Under the pieces are notes generated by a model. That model was not told the DNA's origin. It saw nothing but the letters and a program-made list of their open reading frames with translations, and ran no database searches. Below are positions 1 through 62,589 of a stretch of 64,000 bases of DNA, one piece after another; positions within the stretch are counted from its first letter, which is position 1, and every line of letters begins with the position of its first letter. A program made the position numbers and the translations under genes. The stretch spans positions 9,168,349-9,232,348 of the forward strand of contig CAIIXF020000010.1 of the NCBI GenBank assembly GCA_903813345.2. Direction: 5' to 3'. Origin of the DNA: Owenia fusiformis. Its lineage: Eukaryota; Annelida; Polychaeta; Sabellida; Oweniidae.

Positions 1-124
1 AACTCAAAGGTTCTCAATAATGAATACAATAACAAATTCTCAAATCTGTAGGAAATTACACTGCAAGTGACTTAGAAGTATTTGTGAAATAAATTAATCA
101 AATAAATGAAGCAGAGTTTGGTAC

Positions 125-3100
125 CTTTGTGAGTGTGATGAGCAGGCCTCGTATAGATGTCACTACTATTATACCAACAGCCCAGAAAGATATATGCTGT
201 GACCAGAACTTCACCTGAAAAGATTTAGATTTGGATAGAACTGCATATGAAGCCATGGAAAGTAAATATATTCATCAGTTTAAACTGTACAGGAGTCAAT
301 TGTTGAATAGAATATATTATGCATAAAAAACTGTCCAAGAAGTGTTGGTGTTAGTCCCCCTTACCTTTCCAAAACATTTATTTGGATTTAATGATATGAT
401 ATGATGTATAACATCTTCATGCATTTGAATTCTGATATTGCAACTATAGATAATTAGGCTCTTGTATTCTTACATCAAACTGTATTCCTAGGTAGTCCAC
501 TGAGATCATGATTCCTCGAGTGATCGGATCAATCTTCCCCACTCTGTCAAACACAATATTAATTGTCGACTGGAACAAAATACAATATATTGTAAGAGTA
601 CTTGAAATTTGGAATGCTAATAATTGTAAACTGAAATTACAAAACTGGATTTCCCTTTTAAGTAATCTTGCTTTTTTGCTCTAAGGAAAAATTACATGGG
701 AAAATTTCATTTTCATTACAGTTTTTGTACATGACACATGTTCATGTGAATAAATACAAAAATAAGCAAAAATTTGAAAAGTATATTTAAATTTTCAATA
801 TGATATTGCACAGTTGTATATCTGTTGTATATGTCTGTGACCTTTGAATTAACTCTTAGCAGTCTAAACTAAATCCCAGTATTTCCTGCCCTGGTCTGAG
901 CAAAATGGACAATGTGACCAAAGTAACCATTAGATTTTAAATTTTAGGCTACAGTTGGGGACAAAAATAAATGGCAGGTCGATTTTCGATCACCATTTCC
1001 TAATTATGGTGGTCTGAAAGCCCATAATTTCCAATATTGTCTAGATACATATCCCTTAAAATTTGTATATTTTACATTTTGTATAATCTCATCCACTGAT
1101 TTATGGCCTCTTGTAAATTCTCTTATTTTTAACATGGGAAATCCTCACTTCAGCAAATCCACCTGTCATTTATTTATGTCCCCAACTGTACAAAACAATA
1201 TATGGGCATCAAGTGTTGGGTATGTATTATCAACACAATGCATATTTTTTGTTTCTAAATGAACTTTAGCATAACCCCAAGTACCCAAAGTGCGACTTAT
1301 CTCATTGGCAGACCCCAGGGAATGTCTGATTTTGCGAAGTAACTCATCGTCAGACTGCTAAGAGTTAATATAATAGCTCATCGACAGATTTTACATAACA
1401 ACTTACAATAAATATTTTCCATATGCAGTAAACAGAGAAGAAATATCCAAGAATATTGAAGTATTTTCCTTTGAATGTTTTTCCTAACTCTATCCTCTCC
1501 TGGAAGAAAATACACAAAATATATAAGAGATGACATCTATACTGGCTCCTACACATTAATCTCTATAGCAAAAGACATATTTACATGAGACTTCGAGTGA
1601 TAAATACAGTAAAACCTTAAGTGAAACACCTTTGGTACATCTGAAAAGTGTTCAACTTGGGAGGTGTCCCACTTATAGAGGTTCATTTAACATTAATCAG
1701 TGGTTCTTTGAACTCTGAGAAGTGTTCCACTAACAGAGTTGTTCCACTTGGGAGGTGTTCCACTTTACAGGTTTCACAGTACTGCATTATATACATCATT
1801 CTTAAAAACTTACTATTTGTTAAAATCTTCATAATTTGAAACTTGCTTAGTTTCACTCAATGAAAAATAAAATGTTGAACTAGATGCTGGATTTATGTTC
1901 ACTTATAATGGATGGCCAATATGATTTTGAATATGGAAACCCCTGCCCACTACAAGAGAAACATCACAGTGGAATCTCAATAACATACTCTTGTGTTCTG
2001 GGAATCCACAACTTCTAGAAAGAGTTGTCTACTGAGTTCCTCCAAAGCCCCACATTCTTGCTTCAGTGCTGAGATATCTGAAAGTATACAAATGTATTTT
2101 AGATAAAGATCTTACGTAAAGATTCTTAACAACAAAATTTCCTCACATTTCTCCCTGATTTTTCCCAGATGCAGAAGAATAGAAAAGCAATTTAATCTTT
2201 GCACAATGTCTTACATTTGAGGTTCCTCCATAGTCGGAAAAGCCCACCTTTTGTCTTTTGTATTAATTTGCTCTCCAAATTGGAGGAAATAAAGAACCAT
2301 ACCATACCATACCAATCAGAAAACAGAATTACATCACGAAAATATATTTTCTGACAAAACCTTAACAACAATTTAAATCCTTTAAAATTCTAGCATCTTC
2401 AGTTTTTCACAATTCGTATGTCTTCCTTTTTCCTATTTCTTATATTTCCTATATTGGCATTTAATCTAAAGAGTCATACTAAGCTCTTACTCTCTCCACT
2501 ATTGCTTGTAGTAACTGTTTTAATCATGCCCCATATTCCACCATGTTCCTTATTAAGGCCTGGTCGCTTCATAGAGTCACGTTTTGCAAGGGCAATTCTC
2601 TTCTTTTTGGCTAGAATCATGTCCTGAGTTTGCATTAGCCGCTTGATCTGAGCATTCACCTCTTCATCTGTGATGTGCCTGCAACATTTAAGATTAAGTT
2701 CCAAGCGTTCACTAAAAATTCATAAGTTTCAGATGTTACATATGAAAATCAATTTGAATGTTTGTTGTAAGAAAAGGGAGGGGTGTTCAAGAAAGAATGA
2801 AATTAACAATTCTGATTTGTTTTTTGGTTGAATTCCACCGTAAACAGTTTTTCATTTCACTTTGTACAGATCTGCAAATTGTCTTGTAAAATAAACCGAA
2901 ACAAGGCAATAACATGCAAAATGTCACCACCTGCCATTTGTGACAGACACCAAACACTCACCAACAAATACCATCAACAAAAGGACTGACACAATAACAA
3001 TATGTCATCACTTCTAATGGTGATATAAAAACTGTGTATGAAAGGGTTTCCCCGAAAAATATTCACCTGACAAAGTAAAACATGGAAGTATATGGATAGT

Positions 3101-6100
3101 TGACAGCACCAAATCCAGAGAGAAATGCCATCACAGTGACACCTATAACTCCAACACGCCCGATACATTGCTCTATGGAAAATATACCTACAAATACAAA
3201 AGTTGAAACAAAGTGAATGTTATAGCAATTACAATTACTAGGGGGGAAGGGGGGTTGTAACAGTACAATGCAATACAATACAATACAATACAGTACGTAT
3301 CCAATACCTGACGTTTCAGGGACATTTTAACTGGGAATATATTCCATATCTGGGCAAATATATTTCATATGTCCCACTCCAATGAGGATCCTGGATATAC
3401 ACAATGCAGTACACTGTCCTCATACAAAAAACAACAAAATAATGCACTTTATTTCAAAACATCATTTGAAAGTACAGCTGTATAAAAAAGAGATTCATGA
3501 TTAAAGATGTCACTTACATCAATAATGAATGTTGTACTTTGCTGTATGGAGGAAAACTAAAACCAATTAATTAACAATATCTTTATTACAGTATGTATCA
3601 AGAGAAACTGTATTGTACTATCCCTCATATTCCAATCAAACAAGACACACAGTGCCTGATGAATATTACCCTTTTAGAGTAAATTCAAATGGTCACCAAG
3701 TAATTTACACAGCATGCAAAAACCTAATCAGATCTATAAGCACAAGTGGTTTTCTTGGAATAATGATGTCAACATATTTGTGGCACCCACCTATACAGAC
3801 ACACACAGATGCAAGCCCACCAGCAAAAGACAACTTAGCATATTAGAATTGTACAATAAAAATACTTTGTACAAATCTTATATTAGAAATATTTAATTTA
3901 TTTCTTGCTATATTTGTATCATATACTGCAGGGTTACCTTTTGGTAAACATGATAACATTTCACTACCTATCTAAAACATATTCAAAGTAATTGAACTCT
4001 GACATGTAAAATGCAAGTTTGAGACTTGTATATGGATGTGACTCATTAAGAAGTTAATGCTGTATCAGGCAATTAATCACATAAACTCAACAAACTGTAA
4101 TTATAAAATATTTTATCACAACTACTCATATTATATGATATCAAAGTAGACCTAAAAGCTGTATATTATTTGCTATACCAGGCAAGTAAATAAAAGAATA
4201 TGTTTCAGTCTCTTAATATGATCCCAGTGTATTTTGGGTAGAATGAACCCTTTTCAATTTAATTTTATTTTCCTTCTTTAGAAGAGCTTTATCTCCTTAC
4301 TATCAATATCTGAAGAGTGTAGAAAATAGATAGGTCCAAAGTTAATTTCAATTGAAAATATTATTTTGCAGTGGCCTTAACATAAAAAATTATCACAAAA
4401 TACCAAAGATACATATACACATGTAAACGAGACAGGACAACAAAACTTAAAACTTCAAAACTTTCAAAATGACATTTTTCAATGCGTTGGATATATTGGA
4501 GAGTAGTGGGAAAAATGACATGGCTTATGTGACGGACTTTGCAGCACACAAGATTGTCTACCTGCTGACTGTCTATCTACCTCTGCTAATGGGAAGCTTC
4601 CTCTACTCGCAGGAGTATCTAGGTATGTAAACTAAGGGGAAGGAGTAGGGGAAGTAAAGAAGAGGGGTGTGAATGAGGGGAGAATCTGTGGAGATGAAAA
4701 GAAAAAGGGGGTAAAAAGGTATGGGGTACAGGGTGAAGGCAGCTGTGGGGGCGGGAAGTGAAAAAGTGGACAAGAGGGTAAAAGGAGAAGCTTTGGGAAG
4801 GGGAGGCTGAAATGAATTAGGTGTGAAGCTGTGGGGAGGGATAGAAATCAAAAAGAGGTGAAGAATGCTCAATCTCCCCGTGCAAGGCCACAGCAGCTAC
4901 TTTTGGGGATGATATGATATTACCAGCATCAAACCGGTGTATTTATTTTCTCTATCTATAGAAAAGAGGGGATATGATAAGTCTCTCAGCCTTGGGTTAT
5001 GTGCTTTCCCAAACTGCAGTTAATATCTGTTTGGTTTCAGGCAGCAAGATTGCCTGTTTCCCAACACCTGGGATGTCCAAGGATACACTAGAGGCTGTAA
5101 ATGTACACTGCTGGGTTAAGGGTTACTACACAAGCCTGGACCTGAACAATACAACAATGACATCACAATTACAGCAAGTTCTCAGCCAACCACAGCGCTT
5201 CTTTGCAATCTATCTTGGCATGCAGGCTGTTCTATGCACACTCCCCCTGCTGTTCTGGAATGCTACAATGAAATCTTCCCTGTTGGGCATAGTGGAATCA
5301 ACTGACCATTTTCTGCGAGACCTCACAAAACTCTTAACTGATGAGTCCCAAAAGCTTGCAGCAATAAAGGACAAGTGTTCCGACAGAATCAAAATGTATT
5401 ATGAGGTCGCAATGGACTTTGCAAAGAACTCAAGTATAACTTCACGATTTTTCATACGAATGTTGCTTGAATTCATCATATTTGGTGCTTTGATTCTCCT
5501 ACAGTTTTACATCTATGATTACAAGCCCGGCAAAAATTACTATTGTATTATGCCAGATGGTCAAGTTTCTGATGCACATTGCACAGTTGCAATGTTGGAT
5601 CTCCTCGATAAAATCTGGTATGCAAATATTGGAGCATTGGGTCTTGCAGGGTTAATTGATTGTCTTTACTTAATAGGGGCAGCTATCAATATGTGCAGTG
5701 ATTCAGCACGGGAATTTTTCAGTGAGTTACCGTTTGAGCCCTCTCTTCCCCAGCTCACACGGTGGAACACGTGCACCCAAATGTTCTCATTTAAGATGTT
5801 AGTGTTGCTATTTCGCGAAAATAATGCAGTTATGAGTCAGTTGTATGTCCTGAAATCGGCTGTGGTTGGAGACAATGAAGCAGGAGTTCCACCAGTAAAT
5901 AATGGGGATCAGAGAGAGGCTACTGGGACATTTAATCGCTTCAGTGACCCAGCTAAACATGTGACTCTTGAAACTGACACATGGCAGAGGAGGAGCCAGG
6001 TGATGCAACAGCAGCAGTAAAACAGCATCTTATTTTACATAATACAGTGTCTTTATCATAATTCATTTTGAATCAAAAGCTTTTGAAAGTACTGTGATAT

Positions 6101-9100
6101 TGGTATTTTATATTTGACAAATTAAATAATAAATTAATCATTCTGATTCAAATGTGTATAACTTGTACTAGATAGTATAATAAAATGCATGACTTCAAAA
6201 TGTTCATAGGTTTCCTATGCTGCCCTTTGTGCTTTGACTTTTGCTTAAAGTCCGATCTATAGATCATATATTCTTCACTGAACCTGTAAAGTGGATCACC
6301 TCCATTTAGTGAAACGTTTAAAGTTACATGCAATAAACCTTCCTCTGTAAATAGAACACCTCCAAAGTTGAACACTATAAAGCTCCCAAAGGTATTCAAT
6401 TTAGAGAGGTTTAACAGGGAAAGCTCAGAACAAATCAATAATAGGTCTGGATAAGTGATTTCAATGTCCTCATGGATGTGTTGTTTTTCCAAATTGAATC
6501 CATGCCACATTTTCAAGTTCAAGTAAATTAGTTCAAGAATATTATATATAGCCTCTTATGGATATTAAGAATATCCCTGAGAGGACATACTTTTATTGGC
6601 AGATATATTGAATCCAATTTGAAACTTGATGAACTATTTTTGTCCAGTGGTATGATTTTGGAAAAAATGTATATTTCAAGAAGAGCCAATATATGCCTTT
6701 TTTTTATGACATTTAACCCAAGTACAACAAGCTCCCTTTAAAATGATATTTGGCTCATCATTTGGGATTGGCATATCAATGTAAATACACCATGGTGTCT
6801 TGAAATGAAAGGCACAATCCAGAGGATGAAATATGGTAATTGTAAAAAGATAAACCATTAAAAGTATAAATAAACATGGACTGATTAGAAATGATTTTTA
6901 TATTAATGATTGACTTATCAAAATGATAAATATATTTTTTAATTGAGTAGAGTGTACATTTGTTAAGTGTATTCTTACAAATATTTCTAAATTCAAATAT
7001 AAAACATAAGTCATTTTCACAATTAAACACAGACAAAGAAATACATAAACTTTGAACTAGAGTAAAATCAAAAAGGCATAATGGTATTCATCTGAAGAAA
7101 TCCATAAGGAGCCTGGATATAGTGAAGAAGTGGATCTGAGCTAGAAAAGACAGTGAACCACTAGTCACAAAAGACAATTGAAAATACCAGAATCCGAGAA
7201 GCCGGACAACCAGCAAGATGTTTCTAGAGGCATTAGAGATCCTAAAGACAACTAGTGAGGTTGATATGAGCTATGTGACAGATTTCTCTGCCCATAGTGT
7301 GGTGTACATGTTGACAGTTTACATTCCTATCATAATGGGGGCCTTTCTCTTCTCACAGGAACATATAGGTGAGTTAAAACACTAGGTTGTTTGTTACAAA
7401 GAAAAATGAGTTAAGACTAGGGATATTTACAGTTCACCAGTAAGCACAATTGATTGTAAAGGCCTCAAATCGAACCCTATGTAAGATTAATATCATACAT
7501 GCAGAATATTGCCACTTGATTACATACAGGTAAATATAAAAAAAATATTTGGGTCCTTATGTCACATATGCCTCTGAATGATATTATTGCAACGAGTCAC
7601 ACAGAAAATCTTTTCTCTCTTTAACCAATGATTTCTGAATTTCCCTTCCAGGTGACAAGATCTCGTGTTTCCCGCCACCCGAGATGTCAGAGGGGACCTG
7701 GCTTGCTGTCAATTCTCACTGCTGGGTGAAGGGGTACTGGACCAGTAGATCCCTTCATAATCTGACCAATGTAGACCAACCACTAGAGCAAATCCTAACC
7801 CAGCCACAACGCTTCTATTCCATCCTCCTGGGGGCACAGGCAATGTTTTTCATTCTTCCTTTAGTACTATGGAACAGTCTCACAAAGTCTACATTACTTG
7901 GGATTCTTGAAGCGACAAATCATTTCCTTGAAGATTTGGCCAAAGGAATGAAAAGCAAGAAGAAATGGGTGAAAATCGAGAAGGAGTCTCACGATAAGAT
8001 TTTACAGTTTCATGAGATCACTATGGACATGGCTCACAGTTCTAAATTAGCGTTCAGTTTTTGTATTCGGATCGTTTTTGAACTGGTTTTGATTGGTGTT
8101 TTTACATTTATTCAGTTCATGGTTTATGATTACAACCCAGGGAAAAAGTTCTTCTGCTTGCTCCCTGAAGGTGTTCCCAGTGACATCTATTGTTCAGTTT
8201 CAATGTTAGATCTATTAGACAAGGTCTGGAATGCGAATGTGATTTGTCTCTTTATAGCAGGTGGAGTTGACATTGCTTACTTAATCATGGCAATTTTGCG
8301 GATCAAAATGTCACAATCAGATTTGTTTCAGTCGCTTCCGTTTGATGTTGGAATTCCGCAGCGTTGGAAGGAAACTTGGCAAAGTTGCTGGACTAAGTTT
8401 TCTTACAAACTGTTGATGCTGCTGTATAAAGAGAATAATGCTATCATGACACAGCTGTATGTCCTCAAGTCTATGCCAAAACAACAGCTGTGGAATGATC
8501 ACAAAGACTAAATGAATTGCAGAGTAATACTTATAAAAATAGTGATAAGGATGGTATCCAAATATTGACCATTGTGGAATCATTTAGCTATTTTCATTAT
8601 ATATCATGACTTAAATCTCACCCCTCCCAATATACCAAACTTTCAACATACTGATTTATGATATATGAATGAATTTTATGTATTTTTTATTATGTGGCCG
8701 AAAGTAAACATTTATATATCCCAAAACTATTGACATTTAATGCCATCTTTATTCGGAAAATACTATGGATTTACTTCAGACGGACCAAACACTAATACTT
8801 TTATAAAAAAATTGTCTGAATTGGACCAACTGATATAAAAACTTACAAAAATTGCATTGAACTGTTTTCATATTTAAAATAAACATCAATGACTTTTACC
8901 TTCCAAAACAAGTCTCTTGTAGTTATATATTAATTAGAACAATTAAATATACACTTATTAAGAGGCATGGGGGCATGTGGTACCAGTCTAAATGAGATTA
9001 GACCTTTCACTAAGAGTTACAAGTTCAAATATCGATCACTAATCCAAAGAATATTATCTTGAAATTCATTTTTGATTAAAATAATGACCAACGAATATAT

Positions 9101-12100
9101 TTCAGATATCAAGTGTTATTGGTATTTTTCTATATGAGGTATGGTGTTTGGGATGGTCCCAGATGACGCAATTTGAATAAATGTTGTTCAGTAATATTGT
9201 TTCCCATGCATTCTCCTATTTTTGTGAACAGGGTGCAGTGGAACATGAAGATCAATGTGAATGAGGCATAATTTAATAAATTATGGGCATTATTTCATTC
9301 AATGTCATTAAAAGATGTACAGTATAAAGTTATTAAAAATTTATTATTTTCTGTTGATAATGGAATTTTCATATTTGGAACCCCCAAAATTGTTCACATT
9401 TAGAAATGTTCATTCCTCTTTCCCCTTATCCATATAAACTGGTTTTAGTGTACTATGAGAACTGTCCACATGTATTGAATTAAAATCATTAAATTAAAAT
9501 CAAACCATTTATATTTGATATTGGTAAAGGTCTTGATGATATACATTAATTAAATGATAGTATGAAGGTTTTTTATGACTCTATGAACTTAAAAAATTAA
9601 TATTTAATCAAAATCTTTAGTTTTAAACACACAGTGTTATGAGACATGCTAAACAAATATATTCTCACAAGTACATGTATATAGCTGGACAGTAAATTGA
9701 GAGAGGAGTACTTCAAGGTAAAGCCATATTTATTTATTTTTAATTTAAAGAATACAAAATGCAGCATGAAAAAAGGAGTTATGATTATTGGTAAAATTTA
9801 GAATTCAAGTGGTATCAAATATCAACATCCTGCTTCCTGATACTCATCAAATCATTTTAATTGGTAAATAACAACATTCAATTCCATTCAAATTGATTCA
9901 ATTTCAATGATTTCAAGTCTGAGAATGAAGGAAATGACACACCATCATGGTGCAACAGACACACCATCATGGTGCAACTGACACACCATCATGGTGCAAC
10001 TGACACAAATAGGCACAAATGGGGTTATATTTAAAGGATTTCTTGTGTTAAACTTCACTTTTCAGAACATCAATAGAACAAGAGTAACAACAGAAGGGTA
10101 ATGAGTTTTTTCGGTGCCCTAGATATCCTCAGTAGTGGAGGGGATGGGGAGACATTTGTGACAGACTTCTCATCATTTAAGATTGTCTACCTGCTGACAG
10201 TTTATCTACCTGTATTAATGGGGGCTTTTCTATGGTCCCAGGAGCATCTAGGTAGGTGGAGGGGGAGCTGATTTAAATATATTGATTTGAGTACAAAGAG
10301 TGACCTTAATAGGACAAACCTCAAATATGTTTAAAGAACATTTTGAATTCTTAAATTGTAATTTGTAATTCAAAAATATTCTATACTCTTTGTTAATCAC
10401 GGTATGAGTTTTGTGACTTAAAGAATAGTGACATATTTCTCACAATGTCAAACCTTTTATATGTTTAAAGAAAATTCTGAATTCTTATATGGCATTAGCA
10501 ACCTATATTTTAAAATATTCTATACTTATTACTTTTAAACATGATGGCTAAAACAATAGTGACATCTTTCTTACGAAGCAAACTTCAAATATATTGAACA
10601 ACATATTGATTTCTTATAGAGCAACTCCTAAAGTATTATTCTGCACTTTTTGTACTTTGACTTCCAGGAGCCAAGATAGCATGTTTCCCGAATATAGCTC
10701 TTGGGGATAACCAGAACAAAGCTTTAAACTCTCACTGTTGGTCTGAGGGGTTCTACGTCACGGACCCGACTGACATTACAAAATCATTGAAAACTCAACC
10801 ACACAGGTTTTTCGCTATTTACCTGGGAGTTCAGGCAGTCGTGTTTATTGTACCAGTCTTGGTGTGGAACACTCTTACCAAGGCAACATTATTAGGAATA
10901 CTGGCAGCTACAAAGACATTCCTCAGCGACCTGGCTGATTTGTTAATAGATGGCTCTGATGCCGAAGATGTAAGGGAGGCTGGGATCGCTATGGTGAAGA
11001 TTCGAATGCGTATAGCACAATATTATGAATCAACCATGGAGTTTGCGTACAATTCTAAAATAGCAATTAAATTCATCGGGCGGTTATTACTTGAAATGGC
11101 ACTACTGGTCACATTCATTGTTATACAGCTTTTTGTTTATGACTCAAGTTCTGAAAAGAGGTTTTACTGTGTCCTCCCGGGAAACTACACGAATCAAGTT
11201 CACTGTACGCTCCCAATGCTAGATATGCTGGACAATGTCTGGTATGCCAACGTAATCGCTCTTGGTATAGCACTTCTTATAAACATTGTGTTTATTTGCG
11301 GTGCTATCAAAAAACTGTGTCAACGTTCTACTCCAGATATTTTCATGGAGCTCCCATTTGATGTTGATTACCCGAGTAATTCAGTTTGGAAGACATCTCA
11401 AGCGAATTTGTCGTATAAACTTATGTCATCATTGTTTTGGGAAAATAACCCAATCACAACGCAGCTTTTTATGGTGCAATCGCTCTCAGCCAATGAACAG
11501 CTCAGTGAGAATTTAATGAAGATGAACATTCAAGAAAGTAGTGCTTAGATAAAGCAGGCTTTATATATAGTAATATAAACATTCGAAACTTGAATAGATT
11601 TTCACCTTCATGATTTAATGTACATCGAAAATCCTCAGATTCAAAGGAAGAAAAGAGAAAATGGATAGAGGCTATATCACCTTAAAAATGAAAGGTTTAT
11701 CCAGAAATAACAATCATGAATAGAGAAATAGCAATTTACTCTGCAACATATCCCTTCTTCTTCACCAAGTAAAAAATGAAAAAATACAATTCAATAAAAA
11801 TGACATTATTATTAAGCAATCATATGTAACATGATCAAAATATACAAATACAATATTCTTAACAGATGCAAATAATATGTAAATTATAATAAGTAAGGTT
11901 ACTGACATGACTCGATCTCTGTTGTAAATTATACATCAAGATTAGATTATTTTATTAATAAAAGCATAAGGTTTTGTTTGCAATGATCTTGAATGTAGTT
12001 ATTATACTTTACTAAAAAGATAACACATAAATTACTGCTATAGTAAAGTAATATATTATTTTGTTTTCATGTAGGGGGTCATCTCACTATTTTGCTAAAT

Positions 12101-15100
12101 GTTTACATGCCAGTAGCCAGTGGTGGGGGGGGGTTTCTCTCCCCTGGCCAAAAATTCTTTCAGAATCATGCAGTACAATATTTTACCATTCTGAGCACTT
12201 TTCAACCGTTTTGGGGCCAAAGTAGTAAAAAGTGAACCCCCTGGAATATTCTAAAAAGTCATACCCCCTTGGCTAATCCTGGCTACAGGGCTGCATTACT
12301 AAACAAGCATTTGGTAAAGAGCCCTAAAACCATTACCAAGAATATATACTTCTGGTAGCCTGACTCAAAATTGCCCTTTAATCAAGCAGCATTCTCCAAA
12401 GGTTAAAAATATGTTATTCATTCACTAACCCTAGCCTTATTTTCAACTATTGCTAATCTAAACCCCCTCAAGTAAACTTTGCCCACTCTACTAAAGGTTC
12501 AGTCAAACTTGCAACCCCAGAAAAAAACATTTTCACGAGTTTGATTTTTTATAGACTTGTCTGTCTCAGTCAGAATACTTATTACTACCAAAACCAAAAG
12601 AGGTAAACCATACAAATGTTGTTAATTCAGTCCAGCATGGGTTTATGGTCATATTTTGTATGATTGAACCTTGTTCAGTGTTCTTTCATTCTACAAAGTT
12701 TCATTTGTCTATATCCAATGGTCCTTCTTTTATTGCCATTTTAAAATGTGCTCCAAATGCCAAAATATCTACAGTATACAGGCCTAAATTAAGGTTTCCC
12801 CACAAGAGTTATCCATATTATTAGAAGATAAAATTAATATTGTATTAGATAGATATGACTAATATGTTTAAGAGGGGTTTTCTTCAAGCAGGTGCAAATT
12901 TTAATTTTTGCATTTCCGACCTGTGCTATCATGTCAAAATATGGCAATTTTTCATGATTTTCTTAGTAGGTGCAAATGGTTTTTAAGTCGGTGCAAATTG
13001 GATTTAAAATGGGTGCAAATTGGTCTTCAAATATGTGCAGATCATTGGGTTTCAAGTGGGTGCAAATGGGTCTTCAAATATGTACAGATCATTGGGTTTC
13101 AAGTGGGTGCAAATGGGTCTTCCAATGTGTGCAGATCATTTGGTTTCATGTGGGTGCAAATGGGTCTTCAAATGTGTGCAGATCATTGGGTTTCAAGTGG
13201 GTGCAAATGGCTCTTCAAATGTGGGCAGATCATTGGGTTTCAAGTGGATGCAATTGGGTCTTCAAATGTGTGCAGATCATTGGGTTTCAAGTGGGTGCAA
13301 ATGGGTCTTCAAATGTGTGCAGATCATTGGGTTTCAAGTGGGTGCAAATGGGTCTTCAAATGTGTGCAGATCATTGGGTTTCAAGTGGGTGCAAATGGGT
13401 CCTCAAATTTGTGCAGATCATTGGGTTTCAAGTGGGTGGAAATTGGGTCTTCATATGTGGGCGGATCATTCGGTTTCATGTTGGTGCAAATGGGTCTTCC
13501 AATGTGTGCAGATCATTGGGTTTCAAGTGGGTGCAAGCATATGTCTCTTGTGTTACTTGCTTCAGTGCTGGGGAGATCACTGATGTACCCTGCTACATTT
13601 GTAAATACAATGTGATAATCATTAAACATATAAAGGATCATTAATCATAATAATTATAAAGGAAATCACTGTAGCTTTCAGCTTTTTTCCCTGTTGCGAC
13701 TATGGTTGTTTAAAAGAAATGTTACTCGTATGTTCTGTATATAGCATACACGGATGGACAAAGTAGGTATGGAATTCTTTAACTTTTATATCAATTTTAT
13801 TTCAATCTTGAAACTTTCCCCAGACAGACCTTGTACTTCATCATAGGTGGCATATTAGCTTAGACTCTCAACCAGTGGCCAAGTATTGCAAGGCTCGGTA
13901 ATATGTTATCACAATCAAACATTTAAGAGCAATAGTATTATAGTGATATCTACCGGAAGGAAAAACAGACATTTAAGGTATATAAAAAATATTTGACACA
14001 TGCATACAACAGTACACGTACATAAAAAATGAGTTCCATCGTCACAACCAGAGAAGAATCATTAAATGGGAAACTACTACAATAGCAAGATATTTTGAAG
14101 CTGAATTTTTGAAAGATGTTTTGAGGTGCATCAAAGAAAAAAATTGTTTGTAGGTTAGGAGAGGTGGGGTGGTAGATTTATTAAGTACTTTCTCAGATAA
14201 TCATTTATATTATGTTATAGTGTATAATGGGTTCAAATGAAAAACATTATTTTTTTGAGTATCAAGCAGGTTTGAAAATCTATGAAGTACTTAATAAACA
14301 TGTTTTCTTGTTGAGAAGATTCTGCAAAGACTTTACAGCTACAGTATATAAGGACTCGGGTAAGGATTCATAGGACCAGGTCATGGGAATCTTCTGAATG
14401 AAAAGGCAATATTTGAATAAGCTAGCTTATCCAATTTATTAAAGATAAATGGATGGCTATGAAAATGTTATAACAAAACAAGGCATTAACATGTAGAATG
14501 TCAACTGCCATTTGTTACAGATGCCAACCCCAAAATACCAACCACCAACACTGATCACTGGACACTTTAACAAAAAAGTTGGAGACTATAACAATATACC
14601 ATTTCTGGTGGTGACATTAAAAGCAACAGTTTCAAATGTTGACATACACTGTATATTTATAATTATAATGTTAAAAAATCAATGCACGGCACTGATAAAT
14701 ATATGATGGCACTATTATCATATATATGTCCAAAACTTGAGGATAAAAAGTACTACACACAAGGTTTCATATGATAAATATAATCTTAGGATTTATCTAT
14801 ATACATGTATTCCATATGGTTCATACAGATGTCATTCTGTGGGTTATTTCAAATCTTAAACACACAAAAGTAATTACTCAATCATAAGACTTTGATAAGA
14901 TTTTGATAGCAAGACAGTGTATGAATTTATAGTATCTCCAGTATACATGTATGTCATAAACAGGGAGAGACTTAAATACATTTTTCATTGAAGGGACAAT
15001 TACAATGCTACTGGAAGCCTTAGAAATCCTCAAGAGCACAGATGATGATGTCACAGCTCACGTCACAGATTTTTCCGTCTACAAGGTCGTCTATATTCTC

Positions 15101-18100
15101 ACAGTATATGTTCCTGTTGTCATGGCAACTCTGATGCTCTCTCAAGAATATCTCGGTCAGTATTACTTTGATTCAAACTTGTAATTTTAACTAATGAAAT
15201 TATGTCATCTATTTTACTAGTTGGTGGATAAAATGTCTGTTTAGGGAAGTATATACTCATCTGGTAATTTAACAAAATGAAACTTTTGGATTTTTGACAT
15301 TATAGAGGAAACAACAATTATTATAATTCCAATATGCAATGTAATTGAATTATTTCAGGTTCTAAGATAGCATGCTTTGCACCAGAATCATTTTCTGATA
15401 GCCAATCAGAAGCCTTGAATGAGTACTGCTGGACCAATGGCTACTGGATTGCAAATGACACTGCGATGGAAAGGTCATTGTATACCCAACCTCACAGGTT
15501 CTATCCCTACTACCTTCCCCTACAAGCCATCCTTTTCGTCATACCAATACTAGTATGGAACGTCATGACAAAATCACGACTTTTAGCAATTATTAAAGCA
15601 ACAGAGCAATTTTTGGAAGATTTGTTGGAATTATTAAACCCGAAACAAGAAGAGAAGGAAACTGATGAAGAAGTTGAGAAAATGCACATTAAGGTGAAAG
15701 AAATGATCGGACACTATCACCAGATAACTTTGGAATTTGCCAGGGATTCAAAGCTGTCTGTCATATTGTGTGTACGTCTCTGTATAGAGCTGGGTTTCCT
15801 TTTGTTATGCATAGGAGGTCAGTTTTTTATATATGATCACCGCAACAAGGTGTATCATTGTTCTTTGCCTTCAATGGGTCAAGATGAGGTACTCTGCGTC
15901 GTACCAGTTCTCGACCTACTGGATATTATTTGGACAATTAATTTTGGTGCGTTATGCATCGCTTTAGGATTAAACTTTCTATTCATAGCCATGACGTATT
16001 ACTCAATACATCAGGAAACTGTAGTGGACTTATATGAAGGTCTACCATTCACTTTTGATATGCCAAAAGTTCAATGGGAGGATATATTCATGAAGCACTC
16101 GTATGAGTTAATGTGTGTAATCTTTGAAGAGAATAACAACATCACGATGCAAGCGTATATATTACGGACAATAAAGCCCCCTGATGCCATGATGTTTAAA
16201 TCTCCAGCAAACTCTGAAACTACAGGATCAACCCTAAATCTTACATTTGAAACATCAGATTTCAAACCGGATGCTGCCGGCTTCAAAACTAATCAAGATT
16301 CAGAACACATAAATACTACATCTGATGTTTACAATGTTGACAATTGTCAAAAGAACCCTGATACTGAGTTAATACGATACGAATCAGACAATGTTAAACT
16401 GATTGATTTTCAAAATAACAATGAAAGTAATCAATTAAAACAGTTTGATGACAGGGATGAGGATGACCAATCTATTTGTTCCAAATCTTCAAATAATTCT
16501 GAGTTGGTACTTACTGAGAAAATTACTGTATTTCCTAAAGTGAACAGTGAGCCTAACTCACCTACTGAGAATGGACCTGTTAGGAAGCGAACCATTCAAG
16601 AGAGTGATGTCTGAGTACCTAGATTTGAATACTGAACATGGATTTGTCTAGCTACAAGGTCTTGTAACCACCCCCCCCCCCCCCCTCTCAAATGCATATC
16701 CCAACCTGTATGAGAAGGTGTGAAGTCAATTAGAGGGAGGGGGTCACAAAGGCTTGTAGCTATACTAAACATGGATTGCAAATACTTGTAACTAAAAGTT
16801 AACTAAAAATTCTTTCAAAATCATTTTGAGCACTTTTCATGTGATTTCGGCCGGGAAACCCCCTGGAAATTTTTAAAAAGTGAACTGGCAAATCCTGGCT
16901 ATGGGCCTGAGAGATATTCTGATCATTTTTAGAATATTACATTAATGGAATGCCAGATGAAGAGAAACTGCAGCCAGAATAAAAGTTTTAGAAGTGATCT
17001 TCTGTTAGAGGAGCTGTTGTTTGTGTCAATGGTCATTTGAACCTTATTTTAACTTTAAAATCAAGTTCAATGCTTAACATTCTTTGCAATGTATATAAAT
17101 ATTGCATGGATGTATAAATACAACTATTTTCTTCTCTGTTGTTAAGTTTTGTAAGAAAATGTTCAAACTGCAAAGTGTAAATATAAAAATATACATGCAA
17201 TAAATAAAAATTGAATAAAATCATTACATACATCCTTCGAGATCGGTCCAATCACTATTTTCATAGCAGATCATGTAATGCAATGAATTACTCTTGGGCC
17301 AAGGATGCATTACATATATCATGGGCTTCTCTTGAAAGCCCATGCATATATTAAAAGGACATCATCAAAAACTATAAAATGTGATATTGGCCAATTTTTG
17401 ACCAGCAAGTGGCATTTTTATCATTCCCTACCTCCGGCAGAAGGAAACTTAAATGCCATCATGCCAGCTGTGAATAGAACAATCTAAAGGTGAGTCACTT
17501 ACCATGTTTAGGACTGAGTATGGGGAATGGGTCTCCGATCTTCCAGAAGAAGAAAACAAAGATTGCCCACGATGTGATTGCCAGAGTGAGACGAACATGC
17601 ATCTTCTTAGAAACTGAAATATAAACAATTTCACAGTCCATAAGTATTGTTAATAATTGTGACACTGCTGTACTTGTACACTCTCATATAAGAAACAATT
17701 TGTACTTCTTAACATAAACCTTTACTCTGAGAGATGCACAAATATTAAAGATTACTAAGAATCAATAACATAAAAATTACTTTGAAGTTTCTCACATTTG
17801 ATCAGTACGTACGAATGTGCACACATCCCTGGTATTTACCATTATATAAGTCAGATATGTGACTTAGATAAAAGTTTGTAGTTTTCCCAAAAGAGGACTC
17901 ATAAAACTATCAATTTCAAAGTAAAATACATTTGCATCGCTCACAATTATGTTAGATATTTCAAAAACTTTATATAAAATGGGTACAGAAAATACACATA
18001 TGGAAGAGTAATTGATATACAGTGCAATATTTGAAGCTGTCCTTACTGAAGCTGACATTGCTGCAGATGTAGTACCCGATATAGAAAGGGACGATGACAA

Positions 18101-21100
18101 TAACCATAAACAGCATGCAGTATATTCCCATCATCCAGTGGAACTTACGAGAGCTGAAAAAATATATAAACTATACTGAATCAAAGTGGCTTGTACAAAA
18201 TATACATTTATATGTATATATGGTAACTTACAGGATGTCAGAGATCAAAAAGCGATGAAATCCCTGATTATAAAATATTTCTCATAAAAATATCAAGTTG
18301 GATTCAACAAGGCTATAACTTTAGTTTTTTCCACAACTAATAATTCCAAGGTACATGTAATACCATTTCATGTATACTACATAGTTTTCTATTCTTAATG
18401 CCTCCAGCTTTCAATTTTGACCTAAACTTTATTTTCATATCAAGAAATGCTGAGCTTCGTTTGGGGAGGTATTTGGAGGGTAGAGTGCTGCTAAAGTCCA
18501 TAAAATTCCAATGGCAATGGTTCTGATTAACTGGTAAATTGCAGAGGATTCTACATCAATACACAAAATGTTATGTATGTTATCTTACCTTGCTTCTAGG
18601 GCCCCCAGGATTTCAAAAATGATTAACTCAAACATGGTACAAGAGAGAGAAAAACATGCTGAGAAACTGAGCAACACTGTCAGGTCATGCACCTGGAACA
18701 ATAAATACATGTAACTATGTCACAAAGTTTTTATTCCCTCCAAATTTGGAGATCAATAATAATAGAGTAGGTCCTGTCTAATCCGAACACCATTGGGACT
18801 GGCTTAAAGCCTTCAGATTAGGAGGTGCTCACATTTTAAGGTTTTTGCATTGGTAAGATTCTGGATTTTTAGGAAATGTGAACACATTCTAAATAAATAT
18901 TTTTAGTTCTATTTACACATAGCATGTATATGGCATTGGAATAATTTGAAAATTAATTAGTTATGGTAGAAAGACAGATTATGATTGAAGCCATTCAATA
19001 TTTTTACAAAAGTTTGGATATTATAATAAAAAAGTGATTAGTAGAAAATGTTTGAATGATTTTGGTAGAAAGCATGCTATAGATTAGACAGGTTAATTTT
19101 ACAAATATGATTGTTCTTTGTTCAAATTGGGAGGTGTTCATATTTAAGTGTTTTTATCATGGGAGTCAATGGGAGGAAAAATGGGACCGAAAAAAAGCGT
19201 TTAGATTGGGAGGTGTTCGGTTGTTCGGATATACAGGTTTACTGTAGTTTGAATGAATAGTGATTTAATGTATAACAAGTGCATATATTGATCTATAAAG
19301 ACCACAATTGTAAAGTTAAATCACAATCTCATGTTAATGTCAACAAGATCAACTAGTTGCATGCTAATGGAGTTTTAATCGATAGAAAATATTTGAAAAA
19401 TTACTTTTGTAAGTTTTCACCCTTCGACATATAAAGTAATGGCATTTTAGTCTGATCTTAGCAAAACTATTACTGTCATCTATTTTTCCATAGCGATAAA
19501 TTAACCATAATATTATTTTTACTGAAAGTAGTCTTTGTAGAATTATACTCGCTATTACAATAAAACAAACCTCATAATCTTTAAACAGTTTCTTCAAGAA
19601 AAATACCCATCCTCCACAGAAGAAAAGAACCTGCAATATGAAATATATTTTCTGAAATAAAACATTATCCAAAGCTGGAATAGCGTAATATAAAATGAGT
19701 TTTAAAACAAGGGCTGATCAAAAGGTTTCTTACTGTTGGCTCTAGATTTTGTAATAAGAGAACTTGGATGCTCAAACCTTTACATGAGACAGCAGGCGTT
19801 TCATTAGCAGGAGGTAACAGGCGATTTTCACCGGTTGTTTTCACAAAATTGCCTGTTGTTTTTAGGGACTTTTCAATTTTTCCATGTTAAAGGACGTTAT
19901 ACACCCGCCATTGGGATCTCCCCATGGGAAAAAAATAATTCATCTGATTTTTCAAAATGAGTATTCTGCTTCAATTATTACATTTATATGCACACTAGTA
20001 TCTTGTTGACCTATATTCAGCACTGTATTGATGTATAGGCCACTTATTAGGGTCATAATTCAATCATGAAGTGTAGAGGTATAGATTTCAAACCAGGAAG
20101 TATTTTTGTGTCTGTCAAAATCCATTTACATCCTACGCATCCCTGCATCTTATCCAAATATGTTACTACATAATTAAATATAATAGTATAATCTTTGGTT
20201 TTACAAACTTGTATGATATTTGATAAGTGTAAAAGTTGTTTTTGGAGCATTTTTCTATAGCCATTTTGTAGGGAAAAAAATGATGAAAAAATGTACAATC
20301 TTTTAATTTTAAGTATGACCTGAATCGATTGCAAACTTCATATTTGCACATTTGATGAGATAAACCATTTGTGTCGTATTGTGAAATTATTAAGTTTGCA
20401 ATCGATTCAGGTCATAGTGTATTTTTGGCATTTCTGTGATAATCAATTGAAACCAATGGCCTCTATTGGGATCTGCTGATATCCTCATGTTAAGTCAATG
20501 GTGCACATCCCCATGTAAGTCAATACAACCTTACTGAACGAAATGATCCATATCTCAGCTTATGTGTGTCCGAGCACTTTAATATTTTCCAAAGTATTAT
20601 ATGACATTTTATTCTTCATGTTACACCTACGAATGATTCATTTTGACCATAGGGATATTTGTCAATAATTGCACATCGTCCTTTATGATTTCCATTAATT
20701 TTGCCTGTTATTTTCATTTAATTAGCCTGTAGTGAGAAATTATTGTGAAACCCCTGAGACATGGTAATACGTTCGCTTTAAACACTTGGAGTTTTAAATA
20801 AATTGGTCCATTGGTAGTGACACAGAGTCAATACACATTTTCAATGATAAAGTTAGGTCATGGGCTTTCAACTTTCTAATTGAAAGCCCATGGTTAGGTG
20901 GAGCAGTTTTTTTATAAAAAATTGTACTAAGCAGCAGTTTTAAAAATTTCTAACACTAAGTAGTGGCATTTGTCAACAGACTGTAGTAGAAATCATGTTT
21001 AAGTAGGTTTTATGAACCAATTTAAATGAAACTCGTACAGTTTCAAGCAAACTGTCCTGTCTCATGTTAAAATTTGAGCATCTAACTCTTTGATCGGCCC

Positions 21101-22482
21101 TTGTACATACCCAAGTGAATACAGTGTATATCTTTGATAGGTTCAATAAATGAGTGACTACTTACATGGGCTTTCAACTTTCTCTTGAAAGCCATGCTGC
21201 TGACATTCAAGTTGCACCACTACATCACACTGCACATGATTTAAAATCTAAATTCAATTCTTTTGATCTCACTCCGATTGTAAATCAGTTACAAAATCAA
21301 AATTATCCTGATAACTTGGTGCACATGCTATCTATTGCAAGACCTACGCCTGCCACAACCGTCACCATGTTAATCAGTGTTTTTTAAGTAGCGCAAGGAT
21401 CCTGCCATGACCGTGGTAGTGTTATCGTGTAAGCCTGGTATAACCGTGACAGGCTGGTATAACTGTGACAATGCTGTATTCTATTGCAAGGCCTGTCATG
21501 ACCCTGGAAATGTTATCTTGGAAGCCTGGCGCGACCGTAGCCTTTATTGTGGTTTATAAGCGAATGTGAATATTAATGTATAGTAGTAATTTTGATTTTG
21601 ACATGATTAGGTAGTTAAACACCATGATCATAGTATTAAACTGTTCAATTGTAATGAGGATCACTTAAAATTGTTAAGGATATTCCTGGCATTAATGTCA
21701 TACATATTTACTAATCATTGCAATACATTATAACGGTCATAGTAGAACTAAGCCTAAATCTCTACATTACCACCCTCATACCTGGCATTGCAATACTATA
21801 TTACATTGTCACGTTCATACCAGGCTTTGCGATCCCATAATACATTGTCATGGTCATGCCAGGTTTTCAAATACACATTGTCACGGTCAATTATAGCAAT
21901 CATAAATTTCTACATTACCACTCTCATACCCGAACTTGGAATACTATATCACATTGCCATGGCGGTCATACCAAGCCTTGCAATACTATATTACATTGCC
22001 ATGGTCATGCCAGGCTTTGCAATACACATTGTCACGGTTATAGCAGTCCTAATCGTAAATTTCTACATTACCACTCTCATACCTGAACTTGCAATACTAT
22101 ATTACATTGTCACGGTCATGCCAGTCCTTGCAGTACTATATTACATTGTTACGGTCATACCAAGCCTTGCAGAACTATATTACATTGTCACGGTCATGGC
22201 AGGCATTGCAATATAATACAGCATTGTCGCGGTTATACCAGGCTTTCACGATAACATTACCACGGTCACGGCAGGATCCTTGCGCTACTTAAAAAACACT
22301 GAATAACATGGTGACGGTTACGCCAGGCGTTAGTCTTGCAACAGATAGGGTCTCACTTGGTGTTGGGCGATAATAGATGATTTTTAACTATTATAGAATT
22401 TACTATTATTTCAAGCATAAAATGAACATATCGGGCTTACCTGAGAAAAGAACATAACACAAGAATCGACGATGAATGACAT
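125..22482 (-). CDS. GPR89: GPR89 / Golgi pH regulator, 3' end beyond left edge
   Basis: Multi-pass membrane protein of the Golgi pH regulator family, an anion-channel-like protein that acidifies Golgi lumen in animals (family knowledge). Coding exons read on the minus strand: 22482-22441, 19630-19571, 18692-18589, 18153-18047, 17613-17503, 3187-3067, 2678-2491, 2077-1989, 1499-1407, 569-474, 214-125. All have GT donors and AG acceptors and phases join exactly, giving 367 residues. Start MSFIVDS matches the family start. Diagnostic stretches: LFKDYE (exon 2), CTMFELIIFEILG (exon 3), FWKIGDPFPILSPKHG (exon 5), GRVGVIGVTVMAFLSGFGAVN (exon 6, quoted in part), GIWGMIKTVTTS (exon 7), KTFKGKYFNILGYFFSVYC (exon 9), YLGIQFD (exon 10). 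The usual protein is about 455 aa, so roughly 90 C-terminal residues are outside. Intron 5 (3188-17502) hosts four genes on the other strand. Exon 2 has a weak donor (GTTTGT). Confidence 0.95.
1606..1783. mobile_element. MITE, family with ACAGTAAAACCT ends (copy 1)
   Basis: About 178 bp. Left end ACAGTAAAACCT...GTGAAACACC and right end AGGTGTTCCACTTTACAGG...TTTCACAGTACTG are inverted relatives. Lies in a GPR89 intron. No coding capacity. Confidence 0.5.
2916..3020 (-). mobile_element. Short interspersed repeat, ATGTCACCACC family (copy 1)
   Basis: Reverse-oriented copy of an element of about 105-125 bp whose ends ATGTCAC(T/C)ACC are imperfectly inverted. Contains GCCATTTGT(G/T)ACAGA. Copies recur at 14496, 37133, 41130, 47262 and 48245. 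It ends about 45 bp from GPR89 exon 6. Confidence 0.5.
4469..6020 (+). CDS. Pannexin/innexin-family channel subunit, paralogue 1
   Basis: Exons 4469-4622 and 5041-6020, phase-1 intron of 418 bp (GTATGT...TTTCAG), 377 aa. Four membrane segments: TM1 in exon 1 (about 29-49), TM2 around 105-125 after QPQRF, TM3 ending FYIYDY, TM4 in IGALGLAGLIDCLYLIGAA. Extracellular loop 1 has the cysteine pair C57 and C75 (SKIACFP...HCW); loop 2 has YYC...AHC. After TM4 comes the family signature ELPFEPSLP, then FRENNAVMSQLYVLKS, which resembles the pannexin LPTFD...EENxxxxKxYxxL region. The innexin YYQWV motif is replaced by RFFAI, so it is closer to pannexins in look, though both are one superfamily. N87/N88 (NNTT) is a glycosylation sequon in loop 1. 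The exon 2 start could be misread as a separate ORF with an upstream ATG at 4974, but that ATG is intronic. AATAAA at 6128. Confidence 0.9.
4633..4870 (+). other. Polypurine tract in intron of pannexin paralogue 1
   Basis: Nearly 240 bp in which G and A dominate the plus strand (AAGGGGAAGGAGTAGGGGAA and similar). It sits directly after the donor at 4623. Simple low-complexity sequence with no coding reading. Confidence 0.6.
6128..6133 (+). terminator. Poly(A) signal AATAAA, pannexin paralogue 1
   Basis: 108 bp after the stop codon; the first AATAAA downstream. Confidence 0.5.
6277..6421. mobile_element. Degenerate MITE of the same family, between pannexin paralogues 1 and 2
   Basis: GAACCTGTAAAGTGGATCACC at the left and AGAGAGGTTTAACAGGGA at the right resemble the ends of the 1606-1783 element. 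This is the only recognisable content of the 6021-7217 gap. Confidence 0.35.
7218..8511 (+). CDS. Pannexin/innexin-family channel subunit, paralogue 2
   Basis: Exons 7218-7368 and 7652-8511 with a 283-bp phase-1 intron (GTGAGT...TTCCAG), 336 aa. The first exon (50 codons) encodes a short cytoplasmic start, the conserved VTDFSAH block and TM1, ending SQEHI|G exactly as in the neighbouring paralogues. Loop 1 cysteines C56 and C74 (KISCFPP...HCWVKGYW) and loop 2 cysteines (FFCLLPEG...IYC) are present. The TM2 block QPQRFYSILLGAQAM and the C-terminal block SLPFDVGIPQ...YKENNAIMTQLYVLKS match paralogue 1 closely. N87 (NLT) is a loop 1 sequon. The C-terminal tail is the shortest of the four, ending about 15 residues after LYVLKS. 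AATAAA at 8878. Confidence 0.9.
8878..8883 (+). terminator. Poly(A) signal AATAAA, pannexin paralogue 2
   Basis: About 370 bp after the stop codon. Confidence 0.4.
9935..10008. repeat. Three 22-bp tandem repeats upstream of pannexin paralogue 3
   Basis: The unit GACACACCATCATGGTGCAA(CT) contains the palindrome CACCATCATGGTG. The array ends 92 bp before the ATG at 10101, so it may sit in the promoter or 5' UTR. The rest of the 8512-10100 gap is AT-rich sequence in which I see no gene. Confidence 0.75.
10101..11548 (+). CDS. Pannexin/innexin-family channel subunit, paralogue 3
   Basis: Exons 10101-10251 and 10668-11548 with a 416-bp phase-1 intron (GTAGGT...TTCCAG), 343 aa. Exon 1 gives the VTDFSSFKIVYLLTVYLP block and TM1, ending SQEHL|G. 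Loop 1: AKIACFPN...HCWSEGFY (C56 and the paired Cys). TM2 follows QPHRFF. Loop 2 carries FYCVLPGNYTNQVHC, with a sequon at N223. The C-terminal block reads ELPFDVDYP...FWENNPITTQLFMVQS. Unlike the other three, its sequon is in loop 2 rather than loop 1, the position used in PANX1. Three 22-bp palindrome-containing repeats lie about 95-165 bp upstream of the ATG. AATAAA at 11793. Confidence 0.9.
11793..11798 (+). terminator. Poly(A) signal AATAAA, pannexin paralogue 3
   Basis: About 245 bp after the stop codon. Confidence 0.45.
12110..12300. repeat. Interspersed repeat with relative near 16790-16915
   Basis: AAAAATTCTTTCAGAATCAT, GAGCACTTTTCA, ACCCCCTGGAA and TAATCCTGGCTA occur in the same order at 16800-16915 after pannexin paralogue 4. 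Both stretches adjoin a homopolymer G or C run (12125-12133; C15 at 16671-16685). The remainder of 11549-12968 shows no gene. Confidence 0.45.
12969..13535. repeat. 47-bp minisatellite, about 12 units
   Basis: Unit start GATCATTGGGTTTCAAGTGG recurs every 47 bp from 13040 (13087, 13134, 13181 and so on). Because 47 is not a multiple of three and the unit lacks forward stops, all three plus frames stay open. Lies between pannexin paralogues 3 and 4 inside GPR89 intron 5. Confidence 0.9.
14496..14618 (-). mobile_element. Short interspersed repeat, ATGTCACCACC family (copy 2)
   Basis: ATGTCAACTGCCATTTGTTA at the left and TGGTGGTGACAT at the right give the clearest inverted ends of the family. 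It lies 390 bp upstream of pannexin paralogue 4. Confidence 0.5.
15005..16614 (+). CDS. Pannexin/innexin-family channel subunit, paralogue 4, long C-tail
   Basis: Exons 15005-15155 and 15359-16614 with a 203-bp phase-1 intron (GTCAGT...TTTCAG), 468 aa. Exon 1 contains VTDFSVYKVVYILTVYVP and TM1, ending SQEYL|G. Loop 1: SKIACFAP...YCWTNGYW; N83 (NDT) sequon. TM2 follows QPHRFYPYYLPLQAI, the form nearest to vertebrate pannexin HKFFPYILLL. Loop 2 has YHC...VLC. The intracellular block GLPFTFDMP...FEENNNITMQAYILRTI is followed by a tail of about 150 residues rich in Asn, Asp and Ser, absent from the other three, which could be a regulatory cytoplasmic domain (inference). This is the most diverged copy and lies 3.5 kb from paralogue 3, beyond a minisatellite. 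AATAAA at 16978. Confidence 0.9.
16978..16983 (+). terminator. Poly(A) signal AATAAA, pannexin paralogue 4
   Basis: About 365 bp after the stop codon. Further AATAAA words lie at about 17200-17217. Confidence 0.4.
18767..19246. mobile_element. MITE with CCTGTCTAATCCGAACACC ends, GPR89 intron 2
   Basis: About 480 bp. The left end GTCCTGTCTAATCCGAACACC is mirrored by GGTGTTCGG...TTCGGATATACAGGTTTACTGTA at the right. AT-rich interior without coding sequence. Confidence 0.6.
20314..20416. repeat. Perfect 25-bp inverted repeat (hairpin), GPR89 intron 1
   Basis: Arms 20314-20338 (TATGACCTGAATCGATTGCA...) and 20392-20416 are exact reverse complements, with a 53-nt spacer. It could be the relic of a small inverted-repeat transposon or a transcribed hairpin. 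Confidence 0.8.
21328..22348. mobile_element. Foldback-type element with long inverted ends, GPR89 intron 1
   Basis: The left end (CTATCTATTGCAAGAC at 21328, then ACCGTCACCATG and TTTTTTAAGTAGCGCAAGGA) is mirrored at the right end up to 22348. The inverted arms share well over 100 bp. The interior consists of diverged repeats of about 35-40 bp containing ATATTACATTGTCACGGTCAT. Reading frames across it are by-products of the repeat. No transposase seen. Confidence 0.65.
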
Positions 22483-50676: not shown

Positions 50677-51086
50677 ATCATTTTCTTTATCTCATTTCTT
50701 ATAGCACAGTGTCATATTTATTACTTTTTGTGGTTCTAAAATATAGGTAGGATGTCTGTATGTGGCTTTAACATGCATTTGAAAGGTGCTACTATTCTGT
50801 ACATAGTTGTAAATGTTAAATGTATCATAAATTATGATGAACTCTATAGCTTGTAATTTTATACTAAAGCATTGAATCTATGAGTGACCCCTCTATGTTA
50901 AAATTGACAATGTGTCTGCTAACTAAGAAGTAATTTTCTTAATTTCTGTGTTTGGAATTTGGCATAATTGCATCAGTGAGAATTGAAACTAATTGCCTTG
51001 AAGCATGTCTGCAATGCATTGAAACAAGACTTTCAGGTCTGCAATGCATTGAAACAAGACTTTCAAGACTATTGAATCAACCCTTG

Positions 51087-62418: not shown

Positions 62419-62589
62419 TGCAAACTGTGTCAGGCTGATCCATTTGCCCAAGTGTCATTTTTCAAAAATGACAGTAACAAAGTTGTTTTGAAAGGTAAGA
62501 TTTATATCAAACACTATTCATTTTCCACATGATGAACACTATAAGATCAACATTGACAACCATTGCTTTGGTTAATTCACTTTGAGATA
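62419..62589 (+). promoter_or_regulatory. Upstream block of peptidase copy 3
   Basis: Near-identical to 56929-57096, including TTTCCACATGATGAA and GGTTAATTCACTTTGAGATA just before the ATG. Confidence 0.5.

Follow-up and report, generated by a model that had tools for sequence, protein, structure and literature searches.

Four pannexin-like channel genes nested antisense in one GPR89 intron of the annelid Owenia fusiformis

What kind of genes lie in the one very long intron of GPR89 in the annelid Owenia fusiformis, how did they come to be there, and do they affect their host? We examined a 64,000-nucleotide stretch of this genome (CAIIXF020000010.1:9,168,349-9,232,348; hereafter the window) and scanned the genome as a whole (498 Mb, 525 contigs), in which four erythrocruorin linker matches (best 5e-7) agree with an annelid. 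A sequence-only reading of the window had claimed four complete two-exon channel genes on the plus strand inside a 14.3-kb intron of GPR89, and had called them pannexin-like; we refer to them as PX1 to PX4. The gene models for GPR89 and PX1-PX4 were drawn from the genomic sequence alone, using open reading frames (ORFs), splice sites and domain profiles. The GPR89 exons were placed with the human protein as a guide, and were then refined by splice sites.

We observed that PX1-PX4 are each complete from ATG to stop, with a single GT-AG intron at the identical codon and phase in all four, and this confirmed the claim of four complete two-exon genes. Exon 1 encodes the N-terminus and the first transmembrane segment (TM1), and exon 2 the remainder of the protein; the intron between them (phase 1, 203-418 bases) is placed after SQE[YH][LI]G. 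All four second exons passed the 25-bit cut-off of the Innexin profile (PF00876), scoring 32.7, 40.6, 27.1 and 53.9 bits in order. The predicted genes are as follows.

4469..4622, plus strand: PX1 exon 1 (N-terminus, TM1), gene model
5041..6020, plus strand: PX1 exon 2 to the stop, protein of 377 aa, gene model and Innexin match
7218..7368, plus strand: PX2 exon 1, gene model
7652..8511, plus strand: PX2 exon 2 to the stop, protein of 336 aa, gene model and Innexin match
10101..10251, plus strand: PX3 exon 1, gene model
10668..11548, plus strand: PX3 exon 2 to the stop, protein of 343 aa, gene model and Innexin match
15005..15155, plus strand: PX4 exon 1, gene model
15359..16614, plus strand: PX4 exon 2 to the stop, protein of 468 aa ending in a long C-terminal tail, gene model and Innexin match

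The host gene lies on the minus strand and runs from 22482 to past the start of the window, where additional exons, not all of them delimited, follow on the same contig. Within the window 11 exons were placed; they are separated by GT-AG introns throughout and, once joined, give one ORF of 367 codons. The GPHR_N and ABA_GPCR domains both fall in this one gene model, as expected of a member of the GPR89/GPHR family. In the profile search of the whole genome both were above the cut-off at this locus only (four weaker ABA_GPCR matches at other sites were all below it), and by this search GPR89 is a single gene in the genome. Its parts within the window are listed below.

22441..22482, minus strand: GPR89 exon 1 with start codon, splice-site model
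19571..19630, minus strand: GPR89 exon 2, splice-site model
18589..18692, minus strand: GPR89 exon 3, splice-site model
18047..18153, minus strand: GPR89 exon 4, splice-site model
17503..17613, minus strand: GPR89 exon 5, guide protein and splice sites
3188..17502, minus strand: host intron (GPR89 intron 5) of 14,315 bases, GT-AG, phase 1
3067..3187, minus strand: GPR89 exon 6, domain match, guide protein and splice sites
125..2678, minus strand: GPR89 exons 7-11 (2678-2491, 2077-1989, 1499-1407, 569-474, 214-125), splice-site model and domain match

Exons 5 and 6 had been numbered and placed beforehand, and these assignments were exact in number, coordinates (17613-17503 and 3187-3067) and phase. 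Both sides of the junction are in phase 1, and the joined protein reads ...PILSPKH-G-IFSIEQC.... The GPR89 introns measure, in order, 2810, 878, 435, 433, 14315, 388, 413, 489, 837 and 259 bases, so that the nine other measured introns span 259 to 2,810 bases, versus 14,315 for intron 5. The complete PX coding genes thus lie on the opposite strand within one intron of GPR89, and this nested anatomy, a host intron holding four intact antisense genes, can be stated with near certainty.

To which branch of the innexin/pannexin superfamily do the four genes belong? The Innexin profile search of the genome gave 34 matches, which fall into PX1-PX4 and 18 further innexin loci. Two of these others, L011 and L018, contain in-frame stops. 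When each locus was scored directly against PANX1-3 and the nematode INX-6, all 18 other loci favoured INX-6 over the pannexins, by at least 42 bits; PX1, PX3 and PX4 favoured a pannexin, by a margin of 3.9 to 8.2 bits. In sequence searches of the PDB, the best pannexin came ahead of INX-6 with PX4 as the query (2.7e-13 and 2.2e-9) and with a profile of all four PX proteins (2.5e-12 and 9.2e-10), making pannexins the closest solved relatives for both queries. The control innexin L003 gave the reverse order (INX-6 1.2e-53, best pannexin 1.5e-6). By these comparisons PX1-PX4 are far from ordinary innexins, with three of the four somewhat nearer to pannexins.

Among the ordinary loci, L010-L012 (G000:C5:10.007-10.028 Mb) are three close innexins in tandem, and the stop in L011 lies in its cytoplasmic loop. 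L014, L016 and L018 form a divergent innexin group that lacks YYQW and has a long second extracellular loop (EL2); L018 has its stop in the first extracellular loop (EL1) and may be a pseudogene.

The anatomy of the proteins agrees with this placement. A YYQW-type motif at TM2 is a mark of conventional innexins. The motif (YYQW/YYIW) was absent from all four PX proteins and present in 14 of the 18 other loci, 12 of them scored by script. Motif and sequons were determined by script in 16 loci and by eye in L010 and L015; EL2 length was measured in the former 16. EL2 is 29 residues long in PX4 (by script) and similar in PX1-PX3 (by eye), less than half its length in innexins: 64-75 residues in 15 ordinary loci, measured under a separate rule, and 60 in L018, where the join is incomplete. 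It is likewise short in PANX1-3, as seen in the alignment. What the PX genes share with innexins (INX-6 and the 18 loci), besides Pfam PF00876, is the phase-1 intron site after TM1. Six of the 18 other loci have the acceptor at the same codon, with the donor seen only for L008/L009. Since this intron is so shared, it is probably ancestral, and the PX genes would not derive from an intronless innexin copy.

We then relied on trees for the deeper relationships. The first tree comprised 24 rows (four PX, three PANX, INX-6 and 16 of the 18 other innexin loci), and the PX group and the innexins including INX-6 were each supported at 100/99. The split between PX and innexins stood at 100/100 without PANX2, L014a and L016 (INX-6, itself long, was retained) and at 98/98 on 249 strictly filled columns of a different alignment. 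In approximately unbiased (AU) tests, the grouping of PX with the animal's own innexins was rejected (p 0.0033; on the strict columns p 0.0298), as were PX with INX-6 on the strict columns (p 0.00089) and PX with the divergent L014a and L016 (p 0.0032). PX1-PX4 did not group with INX-6 and the genome's other innexins, as conventional innexins do. The trees show them outside the annelid-plus-nematode innexin group, which alone is not proof of pannexin sisterhood. A modest claim would be that the PX lineage predates the nematode/annelid split, provided that the root does not lie within the innexins. When LRRC8A was used as outgroup, PX and the pannexins grouped together (89/85, not starred), on a weak root and with no cnidarian or ctenophore rows; LRRC8A is too distant an outgroup to be decisive.

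Structure prediction was applied to the exon-2 proteins only, in two AlphaFold2 models. With both models, Foldseek listed pannexins first and then INX-6 (first entry at rank 21 and 17), with LRRC8 lower. This ranking of predicted folds is supporting for pannexin likeness, not decisive. Only PX4 extends at its C-terminus into a tail, some 140 residues long (window ~16170-16614), in which N, S, D and E are abundant and model confidence is below 50.

The alternative that has to be weighed most seriously is that PX1-PX4 are ordinary annelid innexins which evolved fast after nesting, and that their pannexin likeness reflects long branches together with the loss of YYQW and of the long EL2. A number of observations count against placing PX with pannexins. 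The pairwise scores of PX differ little between pannexins and INX-6, and for PX2 the INX-6 score exceeds that of PANX1-3 (27.6 against 20.1 bits, a margin of 7.5). In the PX4 and profile searches of the PDB, INX-6 outscored pannexin 3 and some or all pannexin 2 entries, and these two were the only PX queries used there. The AlphaFold2 models are poor (mean predicted local distance difference test scores of 48.5 and 53.2), and the second Foldseek search was without any match at E 0.001 or better. The tree program issued long-branch warnings for the 24-row tree, for one of the two trees made with fewer rows or with LRRC8A, and for the strict-column tree, and flagged PANX3 for odd composition; the PX stem, at 2.26 in the 24-row tree, is among the longest inner branches. 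The groups for the AU tests were defined after the first tree had been seen, and the strict-column p is just 0.03. The animal's own innexins without INX-6 were unsupported as a group (23/4, 24-row tree), so INX-6 may nest inside them. In the LRRC8A tree the pannexins themselves reached only 85/64, and the end branch of LRRC8A was 3.12, with identity of at most 19% and an innexin as the nearest row by path; LRRC8A is also said to share ancestry with pannexins. Finally, as there are only three groups, 'PX plus pannexins' is the same statement as 'innexins form one group', and pannexin orthology therefore depends on the root.

The post-TM1 intron common to 6 of the 18 loci would also fit a shared innexin pool, but it is probably ancestral. 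Against fast evolution from ordinary innexins stand the two AU rejections of PX with the animal's own innexins, and the divergent L014a and L016, which remain with INX-6 and retain a 75-residue EL2. We consider this alternative rather unlikely. The preferred reading is that PX1-PX4 form an old lineage separate from the same animal's ordinary innexins and that, within the superfamily, this lineage stands on the side of the pannexins. The separateness of the lineage we regard as probable on the sequence comparisons; for true orthology to pannexins the balance is even. The label 'pannexin-like' was supported by the PDB searches, the trees, the AU tests and the fold searches, with the PX2 pairwise score against it.

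Do the PX proteins then work as pannexins do? With vertebrate PANX1-3, which are their best PDB sequence and fold matches, they share two cysteines per extracellular loop, a short EL2 and extracellular sequons. They differ from them in that identity is 14-21% in the top fold alignments, that they occur in an annelid genome, and that the residues at the PANX1 W74/R75 site are not the same. The cysteines (C5, C23, C167 and C179 of the exon-2 alignments) are invariant in all four. A sequon, as a putative N-glycosylation site, is present in an extracellular loop of every PX protein (found by script in PX4 and by eye in the other three). In PX1, PX2 and PX4 it occupies the same aligned position in EL1; PX3, where that position reads D-P-T, has its sequon in EL2. 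The pannexin sequons are described at N255 in PANX1, N86 in PANX2 and N71 in PANX3 (PMC10997603). By analogy with pannexins, whose extracellular glycans are reported to hinder docking (PMC8769644; PMC10997603), the PX proteins would most likely be undocked, N-glycosylated large-pore channels in single membranes and not gap junctions; towards the non-junctional assignment we lean slightly.

A second alternative is that PX1-PX4 are ordinary gap-junction proteins with unused sequons in their extracellular loops. The invariant pairs of cysteines are compatible with it, and seven sequon-bearing innexins are reported as parts of gap junctions (PMC8769644), which speaks against reading sequons as a sign of undocked channels. 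The tally in the other innexin loci was 0/18 for an EL1 sequon and 9/18 for an EL2 sequon (L018 being counted without one, though the stretch omitted from its joined sequence contains one). Sequons as such were rejected as a pannexin discriminator, since 9 of 18 ordinary loci carry one in EL2. It is the EL1 position alone that separates the groups (3/4 PX against 0/18), and the PX paralogs are not independent of one another. The presence of a sequon in all four PX proteins and the short EL2, as in pannexins, argue against ordinary gap-junction proteins, and we judge this alternative improbable. The likeness to PANX1 is also incomplete at the pore: the W74/R75 pair is missing in all four, which does not favour the pannexin reading. 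In its place are K/D, E/G, D/N and D/S in PX1-PX4, each with one acidic residue and none with arginine. This site differs also in PANX2 (R/D) and PANX3 (I/R). From these residues we infer that the ion preference of PX channels may be different from that of PANX1.

How did the cluster arise? We propose that a two-exon gene of the innexin/pannexin superfamily settled antisense in GPR89, a single gene, within its intron 5, and that tandem copying of this founder then yielded the four intact genes PX1-PX4. One nesting event, followed by such duplication, would be enough. The PX proteins are 35-48% identical to one another, and their genes have diverged most at codon position 3 (0.62-0.69, versus 0.29-0.37 at position 2), as expected from coding constraint and old divergence. 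A recent duplication was ruled out by these values. In a repeat search of window positions 1-20000 (matches of at least 60 bases), the only sequence common among the four PX genes was exon 1, at 61-72%. When PX4 and PX1 exon 2 were used to search the genome, the other three PX genes came up strongly, followed only by matches at E 4e-4 and 0.4; with these two queries no further close copy of the subfamily was found. No PX relatives were confirmed in viral and prokaryotic sequence collections. The branching order (((PX1,PX2),PX3),PX4) equals the gene order on the trees, which is consistent with stepwise duplication and a weak test for four genes.

It had also been suggested that the intron grew as the cluster duplicated. 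The PX cluster covers 12,146 of the 14,315 intron bases, and the remainder, about 2.2 kb, is within the range of the other GPR89 introns. This part of the suggestion is consistent with our data, but the duplications are old, and repeats and a minisatellite also add length. These elements lie between PX3 and PX4, so part of the intron length is ordinary repeat growth:

12139..12294, no strand assigned: interspersed repeat (~150 bases) with copies on many contigs, genome search
~12594-12768, no strand assigned: second interspersed repeat, PX3-PX4 spacer, genome search
12997..13536, no strand assigned: 47-base minisatellite, 11.5 copies, PX3-PX4 spacer, repeat search

As to the effect on the host, the outer coding ends of the PX cluster lie 888 bases from GPR89 exon 5 and 1,281 bases from exon 6, without overlap. 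An AATAAA or ATTAAA lies 101-367 bases after each PX stop, though such motifs are frequent by chance in AT-rich DNA. With these gaps and poly(A)-type motifs the mature messages need not overlap, and a mostly passive nesting is what one would expect, the PX genes probably being transcribed from their own promoters. A third alternative is that head-on transcription couples GPR89 output to the PX genes, through interference or because the nested promoters induce the host. The opposite orientation of the genes would allow it, and in C. elegans the nested ceh-10 is reported to induce its host polq-1 (PMC12274878). In human, however, most nested genes are described as having no functional relation to the host gene (PMC4394429), and the coding parts here are separate; we regard coupling as very unlikely. 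That the PX cluster was wrongly joined into the GPR89 intron during assembly is hardly conceivable, since there is no N anywhere in the window, the contig is chromosome-sized (37.5 Mb), and the donor and acceptor on either side fit in phase. Taken as a whole, an old pannexin-side channel lineage nested passively in GPR89 is the explanation that we favour, with moderate confidence.

The arrangement itself had been called unusual, which was overstated. Opposite nested protein-coding genes are reported to number several hundred per animal genome, with 566 further pairs analysed in C. elegans (PMC12274878). The nested share of all genes is given as about 10% in Drosophila and 1% in human, two-thirds being on opposite strands (PMC4394429). 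The human NF1 intron likewise holds three opposite-strand coding genes, OMG, EVI2A and EVI2B, although these are not described there as a single tandem family of paralogs (PMC4394429). A nested paralog family has a precedent in human MOB2 with six KRTAP5 genes; unlike GPR89 here, MOB2 also holds unrelated nested genes and is a host of about 295 kb by the coordinates given (PMC4394429). As genome architecture alone, the locus is one more nested paralog array, and the channel lineage is of more interest than the layout.

Pannexins have been called a chordate protein family (PMC3928549), and lineage-specific radiations have been stressed (PMC9949713). The pannexins and innexins of different phyla are reported not to mix on trees, from which one precursor was inferred (PMC6391747). 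In the literature searched, mostly open-access and at the level of titles and passages, no report of a separate protostome pannexin clade was found. A worm lineage that falls outside a shared annelid-nematode innexin group, as our trees indicate, does not fit one precursor per phylum. Tentatively, the bilaterian ancestor may have had both pannexin-type and innexin-type genes, of which chordates kept only the first, ecdysozoans such as C. elegans only the second, and at least one annelid both, its pannexins all lying within a single intron of GPR89. If so, this would contradict a single precursor diversifying independently in each phylum (PMC6391747), and in other protostomes this GPR89 intron would be worth inspecting for pannexins. 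If the PX lineage is old, the division into junctional innexins and non-junctional pannexins would predate chordates, and an annelid with both types would let one ask about the roles of pannexin-type channels before connexins. The nested position (the GPR89 intron after ...SPKHG) could further serve as a synteny marker for orthologs in fast-evolving genomes.

The rest of the window holds several other features. No RNA family reached its gathering score in the window. A plus-strand ORF of more than 600 aa at 24182-26053 with a reverse transcriptase domain (RVT_1, 1.6e-30) belongs to an element resembling a long interspersed nuclear element, located in the stretch that separates GPR89 exon 1 from the next gene. 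Plus-strand exons at 29211-40361, diverging from GPR89, resemble those of a ubiquitin hydrolase, with a UCH domain at 40020-40358; the gene may be USP28. Two similar open frames lie in tandem at 57064-59382 and 62557-63999, the second running off the window, and a fragment resembling their start is found at ~54319. M28 peptidase, PA and TFR-dimer domains occur in the first, which is presumably glutamate carboxypeptidase II-like. Satellite-like arrays of 446-447 bases occupy 42694-46322, and at 51084-51545 there is a 66-base minisatellite in which several frames are open.

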